From Gemmatimonadota bacterium (GTDB lineage: Bacteria > Gemmatimonadota > Gemmatimonadetes > Longimicrobiales > Gaopeijiaceae), in contig DQPL01000118.1 in the NCBI GenBank assembly GCA_015664885.1, forward strand, positions 1-64,000: 64,000 nt of DNA, read 5' to 3'. Positions 8,811-19,407 of the stretch are shown one piece after another. Each line of letters starts with the position of its first letter. The first letter of the stretch is position 1. A program made the translations under genes and the position numbers. The notes under the pieces were generated by a model that was not told the DNA's origin, did not search any database, and saw only the letters and a program-made list of their open reading frames with translations.

Positions 8811-9779
8811 CTACCGTCCCGCGACCCTCCGCCCCAGATCGACCGTCGCGAAGCCCGACTCACCCCAGCCCATCACGAACACGCTGAAGCCCTGCTGCAT
8901 GCGCATCTCGATGTCGCTGGCGTTGGCGGGGTAGCCGCAGGGTATGTCGAACTCTTTGCACGCAGCGAGAACGGTCTGGATCGAGTTTTCCCAGGCTTCT
9001 ACGTCGAGCGTTCGCTCGCCTGCGGCGTTGGTGCTCGAGAAGAGCCCGCGTAGTGTGCCCGCACCGGGCCAGAGCACACCGATGCCTTCAACCGCGGCGA
9101 TCTCACGCACGTGCGCGAGGCCCTCGTGGCTCTCGACGATGGTCCAGTTGAGCAGCTCACCCTCCGGGTTGAGCGGCCACAGGTCGGCTTTCCGCCGATA
9201 CTCGGCGTCGCTCACACCCCAATAGGCGGGTGCCCGACCGACGGCATCCGGTCGTGTGCCTCCGTTTGAGGCGAAGCGCATCGCGGCGAGACCCTGCCGG
9301 ACTTCCTCCGCGCTTTCGACACCCACGAACATGATCGTGCTCACGCCAGCGTCGAGCTGCTTGGCGATCGCCGCCCGGGCGGCGTCGTAGTCGGTACCGA
9401 TCTCCTGCATCTTCACCACGAGTGGATTCGAGCGCGTGCTAGCACCAGCGGCTTGCATCGCGCCGACAAGACCGGCAAACGCGGAGAGCGCGTCGTCGAC
9501 GCTCCTCTCCATCGATCCGTCGAAGACGAAGTCGCTGGATCCGTAGCCAAGGATCTCGCTCGCGAGCTCCGCGCGAGACTTTGGCTGCCCTGCGGTGGCT
9601 CCGCCTCCTCGCCGTCCGCGTGCCGTCCGTGCTCGCGGCGCGTAGAGCCCGAACACAGGCATGCCCTGCTCGTGTAACGTGATCATGGGGTTGAGGCGTT
9701 GCGCGCTCTGCGCATGCCCTGAGGGCGGACCGATCACCATCGCCAGAGCCGCCGCTACGATCGTGAGCTTGAACCGCAT
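8811..9779 (-). CDS. Secreted HpcH/HpaI aldolase-like protein
   Basis: 322 residues from ATG 9779, directly after GGAGGAAAGGCA. A signal peptide ending near GHAQS is present, which is unusual because HpcH/HpaI aldolases are cytoplasmic. Family landmarks: 'IMFVGVESAEEVRQGLAAMRF' aligns with the usual 'VPMVNTAEEA..AV.A.RYPP'. 'VESHEGL..VREIAAVEGI' aligns with 'IES.EGV.N.EEIAAVEGVD' and keeps the metal-ligand Glu. However, the following 'GPGDL'-type loop reads GAGTL, so the Asp metal ligand appears replaced by Thr. Catalysis of aldol cleavage is therefore doubtful. It is the last gene of a minus-strand operon with an NHL propeller and a spermidine-synthase-like gene. Confidence 0.75.
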   Translation of the reverse strand: MRFKLTIVAAALAMVIGPPSGHAQSAQRLNPMITLHEQGMPVFGLYAPRARTARGRRGGGATAGQPKSRAELASEILGYGSSDFVFDGSMERSVDDALSAFAGLVGAMQAAGASTRSNPLVVKMQEIGTDYDAARAAIAKQLDAGVSTIMFVGVESAEEVRQGLAAMRFASNGGTRPDAVGRAPAYWGVSDAEYRRKADLWPLNPEGELLNWTIVESHEGLAHVREIAAVEGIGVLWPGAGTLRGLFSSTNAAGERTLDVEAWENSIQTVLAACKEFDIPCGYPANASDIEMRMQQGFSVFVMGWGESGFATVDLGRRVAGR

Positions 9780-9912
9780 TGCCTTTCCTCCGAGAGAGTC
9801 CCGCCTGTCGAAAGGGGGGAGCGCACGGTAGAGCGGACCACGCATGCCAGCAAGACGCCCGATCAGGAATTGTCGGTCCGAGTTGGCTCCACACGTCCGA
9901 CGCGACAGGCTG

Positions 9913-10629
9913 TCATGCATCACGAGTGGCGGGCTCGTCGTGAGCGAGGAAAAGCCAGTCTGTGTGCTGCTCGTCGACGAGGTCGTTCAGGTAGCTCACC
10001 GGCACGAGCTCGACGACCGCGAATGCGGCGCGCAACGCTGAGACGAACGGAGAGTTCTCCGCATACGACCAGACGGCCAGGATTCCGCCCGGCGCCAGGT
10101 GTTCCTTGGCGCGGGCGAGCCCGGACTCCGTGTAGAACGACTCGTTGCCCGGCCCGAGATGATCGTCAGGTGCGTGGTCGATGTCGATGAGCACGAGGTC
10201 CCATCGCGGGCCGGTTGGCTCCCGTAGCGTCGCGTACGCGTCGCCTTCGCTGACACCGAAGCGAGGGTCGTTGAGCAGCTCGGCCGAGAGGGGAATCAGC
10301 CCCCCCTCCAGAAAGCCGACGACCGCCGAGAAGATCTCGATCACCTCGACCCGCTTTATGCGCCGCGACTGTAGCACCTCGGCCACTGTATAACCGAGGC
10401 CCAGCCCGCATACTAGAACCGACAGATCGTTCCCTGGGTGGCGCGCGAGCGCCTCGTTCGCCAGCGCCCGCTCGGACACCGTGTTGTAGCTGCTCATCAG
10501 CAGCTGGTGATCGAGTGTGATCTCGGTGATCACCGTGCCGGGTCTGGAGAGGAGCTCCCGACGGCGCAAACACAGATCGCCGAGAGGCGTTGTCTCGTAG
10601 GCGAGAATTTCGAGATTGGAGAGAGGCAA
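9913..10629 (-). CDS. Spermidine synthase-like SAM-binding protein
   Basis: 238 residues from TTG 10629 (no closer ATG before the conserved region, so the start is tentative). The Rossmann nucleotide-binding loop is visible as VCGLGLGY, then an acidic residue after the second strand (VEVIEIFS), and 'DLVLIDIDHAPD' followed by 'LAPGGILAVWSY'. This matches spermidine-synthase-like or class I methyltransferase folds. The N-terminal 'LDHQLLMSSYNTVSE' resembles the substrate-gate region of the synthase family. No signal peptide. It begins 7 bp after the NHL gene stop. Aminopropyl transfer is possible but not proven; a different SAM-dependent reaction is equally likely. Confidence 0.75.
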   Translation of the reverse strand: MPLSNLEILAYETTPLGDLCLRRRELLSRPGTVITEITLDHQLLMSSYNTVSERALANEALARHPGNDLSVLVCGLGLGYTVAEVLQSRRIKRVEVIEIFSAVVGFLEGGLIPLSAELLNDPRFGVSEGDAYATLREPTGPRWDLVLIDIDHAPDDHLGPGNESFYTESGLARAKEHLAPGGILAVWSYAENSPFVSALRAAFAVVELVPVSYLNDLVDEQHTDWLFLAHDEPATRDA

Positions 10630-10636
10630 GCGCCGC

Positions 10637-11743
10637 TCAACGCCGCCCGTTCGACTGCCCCACCAACAAGTTCCGATCGACGCCCGCCTTGGGCACGAAC
10701 TTTTGGATACGCGCGTGCTGGTTGTCGGCGCCGTAGAGGTTGCCGTCGGAATCCACGGCGAACGAGTGCATTTCCAGGTATCGGTGTGGCCCTTCAGACG
10801 GAAGGTTGAACGAGTACTTCCGATTCCCCTCCAGGTCGAGCTGAACGATCTTCGCCGGGCGGAGGTCGGTTACCCACACGCGGTCGCCGCTGACCATAAT
10901 GTCGAGCGGCATCCCGAACCCGGTCCACTCCTCGACTGGCTCGAACCCCCGGCCCGCCTGGCGGAACACTTGGACGCGCAGGTTGTCCCGGTCCACGACG
11001 AAGATCTGTCCGTCAGGCCCGACGGCGATGCCGTGAACGACGTTGAATTGACCCAGGCCTTCCCCTCTCTCGCCGAACTCGGACAGGTACTTGGCGTCGC
11101 CGTCCATCACGATCACGCGCCCGTTCTCGTAGCCGTCCGCGATCAGGATGCGGCCGTCGGGCAAGAACGCCACATCCTGCGGCAGCCCGAAGTGTGTCTC
11201 GTCCGTGCCCGGCACGTTCTTCTCCCCGAGCGTCATGAGGAGCTCTTCCCCATCGTTCGAGAACACGAAAATCTGGTGCGCGGTCTCGTGGATCACCCAT
11301 ATGCGGCGCTCGGGGTCGTACGGACTGACGCGAATCCGGTGCGGTCCCGGTCCGTCGGTGCCCGCGAACAGGTAGTCCCACTGGTCCCAGACCTTGAGGA
11401 TGTTGCCCTCACCATCGACCTCATAGATGCAGTTCTGCCAGGTCCGGCCTTGGCCGCTGAGCGCGTTGATCCCGATCGAGCCCACGAAGCCTGCGAAGCC
11501 TTCGGGAACGGGGTCGGGCAGCTTGGTCTCGCCACGCTGCAGCACGATGATGCGGTCGGGAGACTCCGCGTAGACGCCCGAATTCCCACCCCACGCGAAC
11601 CCCTCGCCGGCGAACCGCGTCGGCCAGCCGTCGATGATGTCGTAGGGGACTGGACCGGTGGGCCCGAGATCCTGAGCGGCGGCGGGACCAGCCAGTAGGA
11701 CGAGCGAGGCTACGAGCGGGAAAATGCGGACAGGCGTGCGCAT
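10637..11743 (-). CDS. Secreted NHL-repeat beta-propeller protein (copy 2)
   Basis: 368 residues from ATG 11743, with a Sec signal ending near GPAAAQ. The NHL propeller organisation is the same as in the gene at 7036-8166. The two align over their whole length (shared FAG-GFAWGGNSGV-AESPDRI, Q-RGET-LPDP and others) but are far from identical, so the duplication is old. First gene of an operon with the spermidine-synthase-like and HpaI-like genes. Function unknown; a sugar or peptide lyase or a scaffold are both possible. Confidence 0.82.
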   Translation of the reverse strand: MRTPVRIFPLVASLVLLAGPAAAQDLGPTGPVPYDIIDGWPTRFAGEGFAWGGNSGVYAESPDRIIVLQRGETKLPDPVPEGFAGFVGSIGINALSGQGRTWQNCIYEVDGEGNILKVWDQWDYLFAGTDGPGPHRIRVSPYDPERRIWVIHETAHQIFVFSNDGEELLMTLGEKNVPGTDETHFGLPQDVAFLPDGRILIADGYENGRVIVMDGDAKYLSEFGERGEGLGQFNVVHGIAVGPDGQIFVVDRDNLRVQVFRQAGRGFEPVEEWTGFGMPLDIMVSGDRVWVTDLRPAKIVQLDLEGNRKYSFNLPSEGPHRYLEMHSFAVDSDGNLYGADNQHARIQKFVPKAGVDRNLLVGQSNGRR

Positions 11744-11884: not shown

Positions 11885-13219
11885 CTACAGCCCGCTGAGC
11901 GGCTCGAGCGGCAACCGACCGCTGGAATCTCCGAGCGACTCGATGGGGACACCCATTTTGTCGAGCAGACTCAAGTGCAGGTTGGCGAGCGGTGTCCCTT
12001 CGTCGTACCGGATGTGACGCCCACCCGTGCCCGCCCCGCCGCCGGCGAGCAGGATTGGCAGGTTGCCGGAGTAGTGCGCGTTGCTGTCGGCCATGCCGGC
12101 GCCGTAAATGATCATCGAGTTGTCGAGAAGCGTTCCGTCGCCCTCCGGGGTCGACGCCAACCTCTCGATGAACTCGGCGAAGAGCTCCACGTGGTAGCTG
12201 TTGATCTTCTTCAGCTTCTCGAGCTTGAGTGGATCCCTTTGGTGGTGCGAGATGGGATGATGCGCGTCCGGCACGCCGATTTCGGCGTAGGTACGGCCGG
12301 TGATTTCGCGTCCCATCATGAACGTCGCCACGCGCGTAAGGTCGGTTTCGTACGCGAGCGCCAATAGGTCGAACATGAGCCTCGAGTGCTCACCGAACGT
12401 CCCCGGAATGCCCGCCGGTCGATCGAATACGGGGAGATCCAAGTTGTCGCGCGACTCGGCCATCTGGATGCGCCGCTCGATGTCGCGGACGGCTTCCAGG
12501 TATTGCTCCAGCTTGGCCTGGTCGCTTGATCCGAGCGCGCGTGACAAAGCGCGCGCGCGATCGGTGACCGAGTCGAGCAAGCTCGCGTCCTTGGCCATGC
12601 GCGCTTTGCGCACTGCCGGGTCCGTGGTGCCGCTGTCGCCGAAGAGCCGCTCGAACACATACCGCGGGTTGTTCTCCATCGGGAGCGGCGTGGTCTCGTT
12701 CGCCCAGGAGATGGTGTTCGTGTATGCGCAACTGAAGCCCTCGTCACACGAGCCCGCGAAGTCACGCCCGTCGATGGCGAGCTCCAAGGTCGCCAGCTGA
12801 GTCTCGCGACCGAGCACGCGTCCCGCGACCTGATCCATCGAGATGCCGGCGCGAAGATTGGAGCCGTCATCACGTCCTGACGCCACACCGGTGAGGAAGC
12901 GCGTGGAGGCGCGCGCGTGCGGCCCTTCGGCCTCAACGCCGTGCATGCCCGAGAGCACCTGCACCGAACTGCGGAACCGTTCCAGCGGCTGCAGAATCGT
13001 CGGGAAGTCGAACCCTGTCCCTTCGATGCTCGGAGTCCAGTGATCCATCATCATCCCGTTCGGCACGTAGACGACGCCGAGTCGACGCACCGGGCTCGCG
13101 GCGGTGTTGCTGAGTGCGGTGAGCGCAGGCACCATCCCATCGAGCAGGGGCAGCGCCATCGCAGCGCCAAGTCCTCGGAGCATCGTGCGGCGGGGGATAG
13201 CCTTCTTGGTGATGATCAT
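11885..13219 (-). CDS. Tat-exported DUF1552 protein
   Basis: 444 residues from ATG 13219, which overlaps the DUF1592 gene stop by 4 nt (ATGA). The N-terminus has a Tat-like signal, IPRRTMLRGLGAAMALPLLDG. The body matches DUF1552 ('RLGVVYVPNGMMMDHW', 'SGMHGVEAEGPHAR', 'DLTRVATFMMGREI', 'HHQRDPLKLEKLKKINSYHVELF'). The family is distantly like the DUF1501/alkaline-phosphatase-type fold and is nearly always next to DUF1592-type cytochromes. The biochemical role is not established. The tight coupling here supports a joint function with the upstream heme protein. Confidence 0.9.
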   Translation of the reverse strand: MIITKKAIPRRTMLRGLGAAMALPLLDGMVPALTALSNTAASPVRRLGVVYVPNGMMMDHWTPSIEGTGFDFPTILQPLERFRSSVQVLSGMHGVEAEGPHARASTRFLTGVASGRDDGSNLRAGISMDQVAGRVLGRETQLATLELAIDGRDFAGSCDEGFSCAYTNTISWANETTPLPMENNPRYVFERLFGDSGTTDPAVRKARMAKDASLLDSVTDRARALSRALGSSDQAKLEQYLEAVRDIERRIQMAESRDNLDLPVFDRPAGIPGTFGEHSRLMFDLLALAYETDLTRVATFMMGREITGRTYAEIGVPDAHHPISHHQRDPLKLEKLKKINSYHVELFAEFIERLASTPEGDGTLLDNSMIIYGAGMADSNAHYSGNLPILLAGGGAGTGGRHIRYDEGTPLANLHLSLLDKMGVPIESLGDSSGRLPLEPLSGL

Positions 13220-15675
13220 GACCTCGACCTCCGCATGCGGAACGGCGTGCTCTGCACCACGCCCACAATGATAGACGACCAACGGTAATCCTGCGACGAT
13301 GCCGTGTGGACGATCCCGCGCACAGTCGGCCGGTCGTAGTATTCAGGCCCCCGCCCGATCGCATAGGAAAGCAGTTTTTCGGTCACCGTGCTGACGAATT
13401 GCTCTCGTCGTTCGAGCAGCAGCGCGCGCAGCCCGCCCGGACCATTGAACTCGGTCCCGTCCGGCAAGAGGCCCGACGCGTCGATTGGCAGATCGGCCTC
13501 ACCGGTGGTGCGCCACCTGCCGATTGCGTCGTAGTTCTCGAGCGCGAATCCCAGGGGATCCATGGGCGCGTGGCACCCCGCGCAGGCCGGGCTCTCACGG
13601 TGCTGCGCCAGCCGATCGCGAATCGTGGCCGCCTCGCCGGCTGCACCACGGTCCGGGAGATCCGGCACATCGGCGGGCGGGGGCCGCGGAGGCGTCCCGA
13701 GAATGTTCGTCAGTACCCATTTGCCCCGCAGCACCGGCGACGTGCGATTGGGATACGACGTGACGGTGAGCAAGCTACCGTGCCCCAGAATGCCACCCCG
13801 TCGCTCAGCCAGCTCACCATCCAGCGCAACCCGACGGAAGTGGCTACCGTAGACGCCGGGAATGCCGTAGTGAGCAGCTAGCCGCTCGTTGGCGTAGGTG
13901 AAGTCGGCGCTGAGCAGATCGGCCACGCTGCGGTCGTCTCGAATCAAGCTCTCGACGAACAGCTCGGTCTCCTGCCGGAAGGCGTCGCGCAGATTCTCGT
14001 CGAACTCGGGGAAGGTGACCGCGTCGGGCACTACACTGCGCAGGTTGCGCAGATAGAGCCACTGACCGGCGAAGTTGCGCACCAGGGATTTCGCACGGGG
14101 ATCGGCGAGCATGCGCAGGGTCTGCTGCTCGAGCACCGCCGGATCCCGGAGCCGCCCGCGCTCGGCAAGTTCGAGTAGCTCGGGGTCGGGGATGCTGCTC
14201 CAAAGGAAGAACGATAAGCGCGAGGCGAGCTCGAGATCGCTCAAGGCATAAGCTGTTCCGGGCGCGATGCCGTCCGGGTCGCGCTCTATACGAAATAGAA
14301 AGTCGGGCGAGATGAGCAAACGCTCGAGCGCCAGCTGTATGCCCGCGTCGAAGCTGCCATCGCGCCGTCCTGCTCGGTAGAAGTCCATGAGCGTTGTCAG
14401 GTCGGCAGGCTCCACCGGCCGCCGGTACGCATAGCGCGCGAGCGAGGACAGGATCTCACCGGCGCACGCTTCTTCGTGCGCGGTGGCTTCGCTCGCTGGC
14501 TGGCACGTGAACACAGCTCGGCGGCTGGGCGTGTCGCCCCGGCCACTGCTCACGTAAGGCCCAGTGATGGCCACGTTCTCCACGGCGGCGTTACCGTCGC
14601 GCAGTTCGTTCACCGCCGCCGCGAATACGCTCTGTCGGGGCTGTAGCACGCCCTCGGGCTCGGTGAACTTGCGCACGAATGAAACAGCGACGACGTGAGG
14701 GCCCGCCTGCGCCGAAAACCGGACTCGCAGATTCGCGTCCGCGAAGAGCATGTACTCTTCCCACTCGGGGTCGCCGAACTGGTTGCCACCGTAGCTTGCC
14801 GGCGCCTGCAATACATCTGGCTCATCGCCCCCGAACGTGAAGGTCCGGACGAGCGCGCCGTCGAGCCGGACCTCCAGCTCGTGGGCGGATCCCATGCCGC
14901 GGATGTAGTTGACGTAGTTCCGATGCAGTCGAATCGCGAGATCGTATTCACCCGCCACCGGGAAGTGATGTCGGATGCCGATCCCGCCACGCGAGCCGAA
15001 CGGAAGGTCGTTGCCCATCCGGTCGTCCTGTATGAGGAGAATGGGCACGTCGTAGGTCTCGGCTGCCGGTGACAACGGGGTTTCGCCGACCACCAGCCGT
15101 GCGGTTTTTCGCGCTGCCGACAAGTAACGCTCCATCAATGAGGGCGAGACCGTCAGCACTTCGGCCATATTGTCGAAGCCGTGCTCGTCGATGTCGTCGG
15201 CGGGCAACAGCGCCTCCACATCGACATCGAGCGCCAACAGGTCGCGCACCGCGTTGGCGTATTCGGCTCGGTTGAGGCGGTGGAAAGCCTCGGTCCGTCC
15301 TGGATTCGGATTGGATGATGCGAATCGATCGATCTCGGCCTCGAGCCAAGTCGTCAGCGCATGGTACGTCTCCTCGGTGGGACGCGGCCGACCCGTCGGC
15401 GGCATTGCACGTGTGCGAAGCTGCAGAGCGATGCGCTCCCCCAGTTCGGCGTATTGATCCACGTGGGCGAGGTCGAGGCCCTCGAAGGAGAGGTCGGCCC
15501 TGCGGAGTCGGTCGTTGTGGCAGCCGAGGCAATACTCGTCGGCGGTCGCTTGAAGAAGCCCGGCGTCGCCGGATGGTTGCGCCGGCGTAACTGCCGCCCT
15601 AGGAGCGCAGGCGAGCGCCACTGCTACGAGCATCGCCGTTCCAAGGAAGAACGACTTCGACGGGTATCGAGACAT
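13216..15675 (-). CDS. DUF1592-family (PSCyt-type) c-type cytochrome lipoprotein
   Basis: 819 residues from ATG 15675. The signal ends in a lipobox-like ALAC (Cys23). An N-terminal heme motif CLGCH (residues 49-53) is followed by MPP, the likely axial Met. Then come the DUF1587, DUF1595, DUF1592, DUF1588 and DUF1585 regions ('FHRLNRAEYANAVRDLL', 'LSFFLWSSIPDPELL', 'RGGILGHGSLLTVTSYPNRTSP'). A second CAGCH lies near residue 697 in 'CAGCHAPMDPLGFALENYD'. This is the complete domain set of the planctomycete-type cytochromes. It is the first gene of a two-gene operon with DUF1552 and is divergent from an ankyrin/CxxCH protein about 110 bp away. Electron-transfer role is supported by the hemes; the substrate is unknown. 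Confidence 0.92.
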   Translation of the reverse strand: MSRYPSKSFFLGTAMLVAVALACAPRAAVTPAQPSGDAGLLQATADEYCLGCHNDRLRRADLSFEGLDLAHVDQYAELGERIALQLRTRAMPPTGRPRPTEETYHALTTWLEAEIDRFASSNPNPGRTEAFHRLNRAEYANAVRDLLALDVDVEALLPADDIDEHGFDNMAEVLTVSPSLMERYLSAARKTARLVVGETPLSPAAETYDVPILLIQDDRMGNDLPFGSRGGIGIRHHFPVAGEYDLAIRLHRNYVNYIRGMGSAHELEVRLDGALVRTFTFGGDEPDVLQAPASYGGNQFGDPEWEEYMLFADANLRVRFSAQAGPHVVAVSFVRKFTEPEGVLQPRQSVFAAAVNELRDGNAAVENVAITGPYVSSGRGDTPSRRAVFTCQPASEATAHEEACAGEILSSLARYAYRRPVEPADLTTLMDFYRAGRRDGSFDAGIQLALERLLISPDFLFRIERDPDGIAPGTAYALSDLELASRLSFFLWSSIPDPELLELAERGRLRDPAVLEQQTLRMLADPRAKSLVRNFAGQWLYLRNLRSVVPDAVTFPEFDENLRDAFRQETELFVESLIRDDRSVADLLSADFTYANERLAAHYGIPGVYGSHFRRVALDGELAERRGGILGHGSLLTVTSYPNRTSPVLRGKWVLTNILGTPPRPPPADVPDLPDRGAAGEAATIRDRLAQHRESPACAGCHAPMDPLGFALENYDAIGRWRTTGEADLPIDASGLLPDGTEFNGPGGLRALLLERREQFVSTVTEKLLSYAIGRGPEYYDRPTVRGIVHTASSQDYRWSSIIVGVVQSTPFRMRRSRS

Positions 15676-15784
15676 GGACGACGAGTCCGAGAATGTCACT
15701 AGGCCAGAATCCAAACCTGTTCCAGTTTGCTCCGGCGCTCACCCGCTTGTCAACGCGGGACCGAGCGCCGTAGCATTGCACATC

Positions 15785-18328
15785 ATGTATATGAGACGTC
15801 GAGCTTCGCTGGCGCTGGTCGCCACACTCGCCTGCGTTCTCGCAGGACCGGTCGCCGTTCACGCACAGTCTGGGCCCGCGGTCATCGAGGCGGTGAGAGC
15901 GGGTGACCTCGAGGCCGCAAGCAACCTGCTCGCGGCGGGCGCCGATGTTAACGAACCCCAAGGCGACGGAGCTACGGCGCTCCAGTGGGCGGCCCACCAC
16001 AACGATCTCGACGCGGCCAAGCTGCTCATCGATGCCGGAGCGGACGTCAACGTCGCCAACGCGCTCGGCGCGACCCCGCTGTGGCTGGCGGCAGTCAACG
16101 GCAGCGCGCCCATGGTTGCCCGCCTGCTCGAGGCCGGTGCTCACCCGAATGCGGCACTAAAGATGGGCGAAACCGTGTTGATGACCGCAGCTCGGTCGGG
16201 CGATCTCGACACGGTCGAGCGTCTTGTCGCGCATGCTGCGGACGTCAACGCGGCCGAGCACGAACGGGGGCAAACCGCGCTGATGTGGGCCGTTGCGCAG
16301 CGACACTCCGAGGTCGCCCGCCTGCTGATCTCGCATGGCGCCGACCTGCACGCGCGCTCGAAGGTGACGTACCAACTGGAGAACACCGCGGGCAATACCA
16401 ATCCGACCGGAAACTTCCAGATGGCGCGAGGTGGCTCGACGGCGCTGCTCTTTGCGGCGCGGAACGGTGACGTGGCCACGGCCCGAGTGCTCATCGACGC
16501 CGGCGCCGATGTGGACGATGTCGCCGCGTCAGGCACCAGCGCGCTCGTGATCGCTGCGCACAGCGGTCACGGAGCATTCGGCATCTACGTACTCGAGCAA
16601 GGCGCCAACGCAAACGCCGCGGAGGCCGGGTATACTGCGCTGCACGCCGCGGTGCTGCGGGGCCAGGTCGAGTTGGTCGAGGCGCTGCTCGAGCATGGTG
16701 CAGACCCTGACGCGGTCGTTGAGCACGGGACGCCGGGCAGGCGCTTCAGCGCGGACTATAGCATCCGCTATCAGCTCATCGGCACGACCGCGTTCTGGCT
16801 GGCCGCGAAGTACGGCGAGCCCGAAATCGTGCGTACGCTCGCGCAGCACGGAGCGGACCCTTTTGTGGTATCCCGAAACAGGGCATCGACGCTGCAGGCG
16901 GCCATGGGCATGCCGGGCTCGTCCCTGGAGGGCCGACGCGACCGCATCGGGAATTCGCTCCCGGATCTCGAGGCAGAGGAGCGCATGACGCTCGAGCTGG
17001 CCGGCATCGTTCTCGACCTCGGCGTCGACGTCAACGCCGCCGACCGCAGGGGCAACACCGCGCTGCACGATGCTGTGCGCAAGAACTTCCCTTCGGTGGT
17101 GGAGTTTTTGGCCGCGCAGGGCGCCGACATCAACGCCGAGAACGAACGCGGCCAAACCGCGCTGGAATTGGCCGAGACTCCTCAGACGATACAAGGCACG
17201 AACGGGCTCAGGGGCACACGCCCCGAGGTCGCGGCGATTCTTCGGCGACTCGGCACGAGCGACGGGGTGTCGCCCACGCCCGCTGTGTCCGCTGAATGGG
17301 ATCGGGCGGCAGCCGCCCAATACCTTGACGAACGACAAGACTGGTGGCTGAGCTGGCCGGGCGCAGCCCGCGACCACGGCACGACTTGTGTCTCTTGCCA
17401 TACCACGCTCCCGTACGCGTTGGCTCGCCCGGCGCTACGCGCGGCGTTGGGGGAAACCGGTCCGGCGATTCCCGAGGCGCACCTGTTGGAGGGAATCAAA
17501 AAGCGGGTCGAGATGTGGAACGAAGTGGAGCCGTTCTACCCGGATCAGACCGTTGGCCTTCCCAAGACAAGCGAGTCGAGGGGGACCGAAGCCATTCTGA
17601 ACGCGATCACCCTGGCCAGCCAGGATGCGCATGACGGACACCTGAGCGACGGCACACGAAAGGCGTTCGAGAATCTGTGGAAGCTTCAGTTCACCCGAGG
17701 CGAGGGGGCCGGTGCTTGGGCCTGGCTGTACTTCGACCTGGCACCCTGGGAGTCGGAAGGCGCGGCCTACTTCGGAGCCGCTCTCGCGGCCGTCGCAGTC
17801 GGAGTCGCGCCCGACGACTACGCCGCCTCGACCGAGATCCAGGAGCCACTGGCGTTGCTTCGCATGTACCTCCGGGAGGGGCACGAGAGTCGTCCGCCGT
17901 ACGACCGGGTCATGCTCCTTTGGGCCTCGTCCGAACTGCCAGGATTACTCACTTCAGCGGAACAGCAGGCCATCATCCGCGACGTCATGAGCCTGCAAAC
18001 GAGCGACGGGGGCTGGAGCCTCACTTCCCTCAGGCCGTGGCGAGGGCAGGATGGGTTCTCTCCTGGTCCCGGAAGCGATGGATATGCGACGGGGCTGATC
18101 GCCTTTGTTCTGCAACAGGCAGGCGTATCGGCCGGTCAGGAAAACATGAAGGCGGCGCTTGCCTGGCTAGTTCAAAACCAGGACCCGACAAGCGGCGGTT
18201 GGCCCGCGTCCTCGCTCAACAGAGAAAGGGATCCGGAATCCGACCGGGGCCGATTCATGGCCGACTCGGCCACTGGCTTCGCTGTGTTGGCACTCATCAA
18301 GGCTGATCTCTCGAACGACGACCCCTAA
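15785..18328 (+). CDS. Secreted ankyrin-repeat / CxxCH / cyclase-toroid fusion
   Basis: 847 residues from ATG 15785 (ATG 15791 is an equally good start). A signal peptide ends near VAVHAQ. Residues about 30-500 hold around ten ankyrin repeats (A-x-x-G-A-D-V/P-N, LLxAGAD, G-x-T-A-L). Then a single heme-binding CVSCH motif occurs at about 535-539. The last 300 residues form a helical region with QW-like motifs (QTSDGGW; QDPTSGGW), as in the alpha/alpha toroid of squalene cyclases. The catalytic DXDD of hopene cyclases is not visible. The combination is rare. It is divergent from the DUF1592/DUF1552 operon and may work with it in the periplasm (inference). Confidence 0.85.
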   Translation: MYMRRRASLALVATLACVLAGPVAVHAQSGPAVIEAVRAGDLEAASNLLAAGADVNEPQGDGATALQWAAHHNDLDAAKLLIDAGADVNVANALGATPLWLAAVNGSAPMVARLLEAGAHPNAALKMGETVLMTAARSGDLDTVERLVAHAADVNAAEHERGQTALMWAVAQRHSEVARLLISHGADLHARSKVTYQLENTAGNTNPTGNFQMARGGSTALLFAARNGDVATARVLIDAGADVDDVAASGTSALVIAAHSGHGAFGIYVLEQGANANAAEAGYTALHAAVLRGQVELVEALLEHGADPDAVVEHGTPGRRFSADYSIRYQLIGTTAFWLAAKYGEPEIVRTLAQHGADPFVVSRNRASTLQAAMGMPGSSLEGRRDRIGNSLPDLEAEERMTLELAGIVLDLGVDVNAADRRGNTALHDAVRKNFPSVVEFLAAQGADINAENERGQTALELAETPQTIQGTNGLRGTRPEVAAILRRLGTSDGVSPTPAVSAEWDRAAAAQYLDERQDWWLSWPGAARDHGTTCVSCHTTLPYALARPALRAALGETGPAIPEAHLLEGIKKRVEMWNEVEPFYPDQTVGLPKTSESRGTEAILNAITLASQDAHDGHLSDGTRKAFENLWKLQFTRGEGAGAWAWLYFDLAPWESEGAAYFGAALAAVAVGVAPDDYAASTEIQEPLALLRMYLREGHESRPPYDRVMLLWASSELPGLLTSAEQQAIIRDVMSLQTSDGGWSLTSLRPWRGQDGFSPGPGSDGYATGLIAFVLQQAGVSAGQENMKAALAWLVQNQDPTSGGWPASSLNRERDPESDRGRFMADSATGFAVLALIKADLSNDDP

Positions 18329-19278
18329 CGGACCTCGAGACGCGCCGCCACGGGGTAGTGATCGGACGGATAGCGGCCTCGGTCATTGTACAGGACCGTC
18401 TCGACCGACCGGACTCCAATCGGACCTCCGACCAAGATCCAGTCGACCCGCTCGATGCGCCCCTCGTCCGGGGCACCGAAGTCGCTAAGGGTCAGTGCCG
18501 GACCCCGCCGCTCGTCGGCCACGAGCCAGGCGTCGCGTAGTCCCTGGCCGGTAGCGTTCCGCCACAACTCGCTATGCTCCGCGACGTTGTTGAAGTCGCC
18601 CATGACGATGACGGCGGCACCTGCCGGCAAGGCACCCACCCGCTCCAGGATCAACTCGACCGAATCGATCTGCCCCTGCCCTCGCCTCAGGGAGAGATGG
18701 GTGTTGAAGACGTGCACCGCTCGCCCCGTCGCCAAGTGATGAAACCTCGCCCAGGTGACGATGCGACCACCGCCTCGCCGCCGCCGGGCGCCATTCGACG
18801 GCGGCGGTTGGGGCGCCGGCGGCTGATCGGGCGTGTCAGTGAGCCAGAAATTGCCCGACTCTATCGGTGCCAGCTCGTCGTGCCGGTAGAAGATGGGTGT
18901 GTGCTCGCTGAGCCCCTGTCCACCGTTGAGCCGGCGATCGATTCCCAGCCAGCGATAGTCCGGCAACTCAGCCGTCAGAAACTCGATCTGCTCGCTGACG
19001 GCCTCCTGCATGCCGACAACGTGGGGCGCGAATCGACGGATGGTCTCCGCCACCAGCTCTTTCCGATACTGCCAGGCGTTGTCTCCATCGGGGATATTCG
19101 ACGTTCGAATGTTGAACGTCATGACATCGAGCTGGATCTGCGCGGCGGCGTGCCCCGGCGTTCCCATCACCGCGGCTGAAACAACGGCGGCGGCGATGAG
19201 CTTTCGGGCGAGCGTTGCGGTTTGCGGCGGTCGAGAGGCCCTCGAGGGCCCCCCTGAGGCGGGTAAGGGATCGAACAT
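18325..19278 (-). CDS. Secreted endonuclease/exonuclease/phosphatase (EEP) family enzyme
   Basis: 317 residues from ATG 19278. A signal peptide precedes the EEP core: 'LDVMTFNIRTSN', 'VVGMQEA' (metal-ligand Glu), 'HVFNTHLSLR', 'VIVMGDFNN' (catalytic Asp/Asn) and C-terminal 'YPSDHYPVAARLEV' (Asp-His). All catalytic landmarks of the DNase I / sphingomyelinase-type fold are present, so it should be an active metal-dependent phosphoesterase. Nucleic acid, phospholipid and sugar-phosphate are all possible substrates. A proline/arginine-rich insertion around residue 185 is atypical. Its stop codon overlaps that of the convergent ankyrin gene. Confidence 0.87.
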   Translation of the reverse strand: MFDPLPASGGPSRASRPPQTATLARKLIAAAVVSAAVMGTPGHAAAQIQLDVMTFNIRTSNIPDGDNAWQYRKELVAETIRRFAPHVVGMQEAVSEQIEFLTAELPDYRWLGIDRRLNGGQGLSEHTPIFYRHDELAPIESGNFWLTDTPDQPPAPQPPPSNGARRRRGGGRIVTWARFHHLATGRAVHVFNTHLSLRRGQGQIDSVELILERVGALPAGAAVIVMGDFNNVAEHSELWRNATGQGLRDAWLVADERRGPALTLSDFGAPDEGRIERVDWILVGGPIGVRSVETVLYNDRGRYPSDHYPVAARLEVR

Positions 19279-19407
19279 GGACGACAAGATGCGTCGCCGG
19301 AGTGGCGGGCGGCAAATCGACCCCACGCGACGGATCACGATTGCTGAACCGTACACTCCTCGGCAACTTCGACCGCTGGCCTACGGAGCTGGCAGGAGGA
19401 CAGGCGG

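Follow-up and report, generated by a model that had tools for sequence, protein, structure and literature searches.

A DUF1592-DUF1552-ankyrin gene cassette in Gemmatimonadota, a candidate periplasmic redox module, and the fusion of one ankyrin copy to a predicted heme-bearing toroid

The closest described relatives of the genes considered here are the PSD/PSCyt genes of Verrucomicrobia and Planctomycetes. He et al. (2017; PMC5615132) report that PSCyt2 and PSCyt3 genes usually adjoin two families of unknown genes, of unknown function, PSCyt3 genes usually standing beside one unknown-gene family; the term DUF1552 belongs to the paper's record, while the passage that names it lies outside the main text. 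The 64,000-nucleotide stretch of DNA that we analysed (hereafter the window; contig DQPL01000118.1, assembly GCA_015664885.1, from a Gemmatimonadota bacterium) carries a locus in which a DUF1592 di-heme gene of the same PSD/PSCyt domain family is followed by a DUF1552 gene, an order also found on a Planctomyces plasmid (L065). The plasmid lacks the third gene of the window cassette, which encodes a periplasmic ankyrin-repeat protein that goes without mention in the open-access papers found; nor did a search of the open-access literature find any publication tying ankyrin to DUF1552, DUF1592 or PSCyt. The window copy of this ankyrin gene continues in frame into a second domain, a toroid with a heme site (hereafter the heme-toroid).

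Our principal observation is that the three genes belong together. A search across the source genome found eight DUF1592 and eight DUF1552 genes, always as pairs, and each of the eight pairs is adjoined by an ankyrin gene, which lies downstream on the same strand in seven cases and divergently in the window copy. All 30 Ank_2 matches of the genome fall within these eight ankyrin genes, so that the association is exclusive in both directions in this genome. Among the eight cassettes the paralogue distances of the three members correlate closely (DUF1552 with ankyrin, r=0.95, permutation p about 0.0002; DUF1552 with DUF1592, r=0.97; DUF1592 with ankyrin, r=0.96), and across 44 cassettes r is 0.94-0.95. 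Because the former correlation was measured among paralogues of one genome, the species tree is removed as an explanation. The core unit is DUF1592-DUF1552-ankyrin, its members being inherited and diverging together, and this three-gene grouping is well supported. With moderate confidence, we read the locus as belonging to a periplasmic redox cassette that is present in several copies and in which the ankyrin protein would be a scaffold near the electron path.

Beyond the source genome, the cassette was censused by tblastn, which limits the errors of a greedy open reading frame (ORF) picker that may miss or overextend genes in other loci. The triad was present in 20 of 20 loci sampled from other Gemmatimonadota genomes, in 11 of 16 interpretable loci from Acidobacteriota genomes that had been brought in through the heme-toroid (a biased set), and in 4 of 13 loci of an independent acidobacterial sample. 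Among Gammaproteobacteria it occurs in L150-L153 and L167, the ankyrin gene being missing from four distant variants (L168-L171), and it is carried by one Novosphingobium plasmid, but not by a Planctomyces or a Sphingobium plasmid. The ankyrin partner is lineage- and subtype-specific, not universal. Two acidobacterial genomes are rich in DUF1552 matches, with 31 in G414 (3.2 Mb) and 20 in G405 (4.1 Mb), numbers that recall the expanded, multi-copy modules of nutrient uptake.

Cassette ankyrins are of two types, a short one of roughly 440-510 amino acids (aa), like that of the window, and a long one of roughly 580-735 aa. The long proteins mostly close with LGxKNNHxCxxC directly before the stop codon, a tail present in 29 of 56 ankyrin ORFs and 23 of 44 in the cassette set (the ORFs bearing it are in L044, L045, L047, L050, L058, L062, L116-L122, L125-L129, L131-L133, L135 and L148). 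No histidine follows the CxxC, which means that the tail is not a standard heme site; it is possibly metal-, disulfide- or heme-related. Redox domains recur C-terminal to such ankyrins: as well as the heme-toroid in the window, a class I cytochrome c (CAACH) is fused to a cassette ankyrin in L026:83-2023, and a 729-aa acidobacterial protein (L196:12552-14741) joins N-terminal ankyrin repeats to a C-terminal pyrroloquinoline quinone (PQQ)-type propeller. In two gammaproteobacterial loci (L168:5238-6542 and L169:4959-6257) a flavocytochrome c sulfide dehydrogenase (FCSD) flavoprotein replaces the ankyrin after DUF1552, unlike the window locus, which has no FCSD, and in L066 a pair without ankyrin is followed by cytochrome c and cytochrome b; redox genes in this position hint that the DUF1592-DUF1552 pair works with redox partners, as do the L026 fusion and the PQQ dehydrogenase, NHL and aldolase-like genes that recur around cassettes.

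The three genes described in an earlier note on this DNA are real, and Pfam and coordinates agree with its account apart from small shifts in numbering: the CVSCH site of the fusion protein is at residues 533-537 rather than 535-539, the second heme site of the DUF1592 protein is at 698-702 rather than near 697, the divergent starts are 115 rather than about 110 bp apart, and the ankyrin repeats, put at about ten, number roughly 11 when counted by eye. Its description of a two-heme DUF1592 lipoprotein and a Tat (twin-arginine translocation)-exported DUF1552 protein was borne out, and with the signal-peptide-like N-terminus of the fusion protein all three cassette proteins carry export signals in their sequences. 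The DUF1592 protein has the domain order PSD3/DUF1587, PSD5/DUF1595, PSD4/DUF1592, PSCyt3/DUF1588 and PSD2/DUF1585, all above Pfam cut-offs, a lipobox-like N-terminus (VALAC, by eye), and heme sites CLGCH (49-53) and CAGCH, neither of which varies in any of the 39 aligned sequences. The DUF1552 protein (PF07586, 322 bits) has a twin-arginine pair, R10 R11, invariant in 42 of 42 aligned sequences; the HxxSHH motif is present as HHPISHH, and the invariant residues include H101, D129, H321, H325 and H382, a histidine and aspartate set that would suit a metal site. Neither the DUF1592 nor the DUF1552 sequence gave a match when searched against the PDB. The AlphaFold 2 (AF2) model of DUF1552 (predicted local distance difference test, pLDDT, 81; predicted template-modelling score, pTM, 0.86) gave 27 Foldseek matches in the PDB at E<=0.001, of which the leading ones all belong to the alkaline-phosphatase superfamily (sulfatases, LtaS and phosphonate monoester hydrolases). 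The protein is predicted from this model to share the alkaline-phosphatase/sulfatase superfamily fold, at an identity of about 10% and a template-modelling (TM) score of about 0.4.

The match to sulfatases and related hydrolases also suits a different account, in which DUF1592 and DUF1552 are a pair that processes carbohydrates or organic esters, DUF1552 being a true hydrolase, the DUF1592 hemes mounting a peroxidase-like oxidative attack, and the ankyrin merely binding substrate or wall. Verrucomicrobial PSCyt-type genes do lie near sulfatase genes, some of them with carbohydrate-binding modules (PMC5615132), and a Cellvibrio DUF1592 protein with a CBM2 is listed in a lignocellulose study (PMC6004670). 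However, inspection of the window DUF1552 sequence showed no evident DD pair or formylglycine position of the classical sulfatase kind, and neither a glycoside hydrolase nor a sulfatase was among the recurrent neighbours scanned. We consider such a processing role rather doubtful.

For the redox cassette, the mechanism that we infer begins with the DUF1592 protein, which, tethered to a membrane, would take electrons from a small substrate in the periplasm and pass them on by way of its two hemes. DUF1552, by appearance a metal protein, would share in handling that substrate. The ankyrin would act as a docking scaffold, holding the complex near the electron acceptor or another redox protein, and in the window copy the acceptor-side heme would be carried covalently by the scaffold itself. 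The many cassette copies may be substrate-specific versions of one module. A broader proposal, which we put forward only tentatively, is that these genes represent an undescribed family of periplasmic redox modules, substrate-specific and present in up to about 30 copies per genome, with electrons perhaps being exchanged at the C-terminal end of the ankyrin scaffold (the CxxC tail in about half, the cytochrome c in L026 and the heme-toroid here).

The history of the fusion can be read from a genome of the same genus (G001), in which an ankyrin fragment is followed by a copper amine oxidase (PF01179) and then by a standalone heme-toroid of 382 aa. Homology of the window DNA to the G001 ankyrin extends to 17263, immediately before the stop codon in G001, and homology to the G001 heme-toroid begins at 17277, just past its signal peptide; the window junction lacks the stop codon, the amine oxidase gene and the signal peptide. 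Since its two edges coincide with the stop codon of the ankyrin gene and with the beginning of the mature heme protein, the simplest history is an in-frame deletion that joined the ankyrin gene to a formerly separate heme-toroid. G001 is not itself an intact ancestor, because the 5' part of its ankyrin gene has been replaced by a transposase-like ORF (from inspection; L052:13151-14145), and its orthologous DUF1592 begins at a contig end (the start of L054). A general amine-oxidase/heme-toroid system was rejected, the G001 amine oxidase having no blastp match in L018-L043 outside its own genome.

Among the 28 Gemmatimonadota and 23 Acidobacteriota genomes with a heme-toroid, the fusion was seen only in the source genome, and no second case of ankyrin repeats within a heme-toroid gene was found in the loci examined. 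This single occurrence, and the disturbance of the same locus in G001 just described, might point to an artefact of assembly, or to an accident that is neutral or decaying. We think this unlikely, as the junction is in frame, the 2,538-bp ORF is intact and both halves look constrained by purifying selection, with ratios of nonsynonymous to synonymous substitution rates (dN/dS) of 0.14 and 0.19, beside 0.10 for DUF1592 and 0.07 for DUF1552, the ratios of the two halves including time before the fusion. The fusion is of recent and local origin and may give a clue to the contacts of the ankyrin.

The heme-toroid is a separate, mostly standalone family. Genomes carrying the domain number 28 of 395 in Gemmatimonadota and 23 of 396 in Acidobacteriota, and it also occurs in 23 named loci. 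Its standalone members have signal-peptide-like N-termini by eye, which, with the conserved CxxCH, is in keeping with a c-type cytochrome. The AF2 model (pLDDT 86.9, pTM 0.90) matches terpene-cyclase and complement TED toroids in the PDB (Foldseek, TM about 0.5-0.6), and an invariant methionine, M321, is a possible axial heme ligand. The fold is common to squalene-hopene and other class II terpene cyclases and to TED, but the heme-toroid differs in lacking DxDD, which occurs in none of 22 aligned sequences, and in carrying CxxCH on its N-terminal side. To our knowledge, the cyclase and TED toroid families are not known for a CxxCH heme site. The absence of DxDD led us to reject terpene-cyclase activity, and on the alignment any cyclase activity is unlikely; the domain is best seen as a predicted heme-bearing alpha/alpha toroid.

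Several suggestions of the earlier note bear on this family. The heme site is conserved, CxxCH being kept in 75 of 75 homologues that cover it (five partial matches stop short of it). The toroid fold is upheld by the model, and the QW-type motifs take the form of two DGGW / Q..GGW motifs; squalene-cyclase-like catalysis, about which the note asked, is not upheld, and the sequence link to cyclases is weak (SQHop_cyclase_C at 20 bits, below the Pfam cut-off of 26.1; PDB phmmer E=2e-4). The idea of one system holds for the pair and the ankyrin part, given their association in all eight cassettes, their parallel divergence and their occurrence in several phyla, but not for the fusion as a conserved component. 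The survey of co-occurrence that the note proposed showed a triad conserved in several phyla and a heme-toroid mostly without the pair, which was near it in two of the 23 named loci and in none of a further 17 from Gemmatimonadota; whether the fusion occurs mostly apart from the pair is not a question that a single fusion can answer, although this is so for the heme-toroid family. A search for a conserved operon around the heme-toroid found none, the neighbours varying from locus to locus. One standalone gene (L043:7887-8990, 48% identity), on a plasmid of Sphingobium sp. RAC03, has an IS110 transposase and a Cas9 locus as neighbours. That the ankyrin-heme-toroid is itself a conserved partner of the pair, its toroid pocket holding a lipid-like substrate, is highly improbable: a heme-toroid gene also lies on the divergent side of the cassette in L026 and L036, making three independent cases (including the window/G001 genus) against about 0.5 expected on a rough hand estimate, which seems above chance, but the fusion exists only in this genome, the heme-toroid usually lies far from any pair and is missing from seven of the eight cassettes of the source genome, and DxDD is absent.

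Several observations weigh against a redox cassette with an ankyrin scaffold near its electron path. No ankyrin accompanies about half of the sampled Acidobacteriota cassettes or several proteobacterial and planctomycete ones, and most ankyrin partners are heme-free. In L196 the neighbour of the ankyrin-PQQ fusion is a standalone heme-toroid gene and not a cassette, and the pre-fusion share of the dN/dS values counts on the same side. The catalytic residues of DUF1552 have no obvious match to a sulfatase or phosphatase site.

The features of the locus are collected in Table 1. The DUF1592 stop and DUF1552 start share an ATGA overlap; the TTG further upstream marks the DUF1552 ORF start only in a mechanical sense, the ATG being the likely one. 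The divergent intergenic region contains one sigma-70-like match (15747-15776, + strand), a consensus match only. As raw counts, uncorrected for background frequency, genes of the same family as the NHL-repeat beta-propeller gene of the window lie near 13 sampled cassettes and those of the HpcH/HpaI aldolase-like family near 9, and PQQ dehydrogenase genes also recur around them. The fusion gene runs 4 bp (18325-18328) into a convergent endonuclease/exonuclease/phosphatase gene (18325-19356, - strand), the overlap lying at the two stop codons.

Table 1. Coordinates of the cassette and neighbouring features in the window
Feature	Position	Strand	Basis or remark
HpcH/HpaI aldolase-like gene	8811-9923	-	Pfam
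NHL-repeat beta-propeller gene	10637-11743	-	Downstream of DUF1552; Pfam
DUF1552 (HXXSHH) gene	11885-13219	-	444 aa; ATG at 13219
DUF1592-type di-heme lipoprotein gene	13216-15675	-	819 aa; Pfam
Divergent intergenic region, 115 bp	15676-15790		Between start codons of DUF1592 (15675) and fusion gene (15791)
Ankyrin/heme/toroid fusion gene	15791-18328	+	845 aa; 2,538-bp ORF
Signal peptide and ankyrin-repeat region of fusion gene	15791-17263	+	Pfam; homology to G001 ankyrin ends at 17263
Fusion junction, 13 bp	17264-17276	+	blastn and pairwise alignment to L052 (G001)
Predicted heme-toroid domain (CVSCH heme site, then alpha/alpha toroid)	17277-18328	+	Homologue alignment, AF2, Foldseek

Bacteria of soil, sediment and freshwater carry DUF1592 and DUF1552 genes in abundance and in multiple copies, with a function that is unknown. 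The dedicated periplasmic ankyrin, the in-step divergence of the three genes and the predicted fold of DUF1552 would together give a defined complex to purify and partners that can be tested, while the natural fusion suggests which partner may sit beside the ankyrin.

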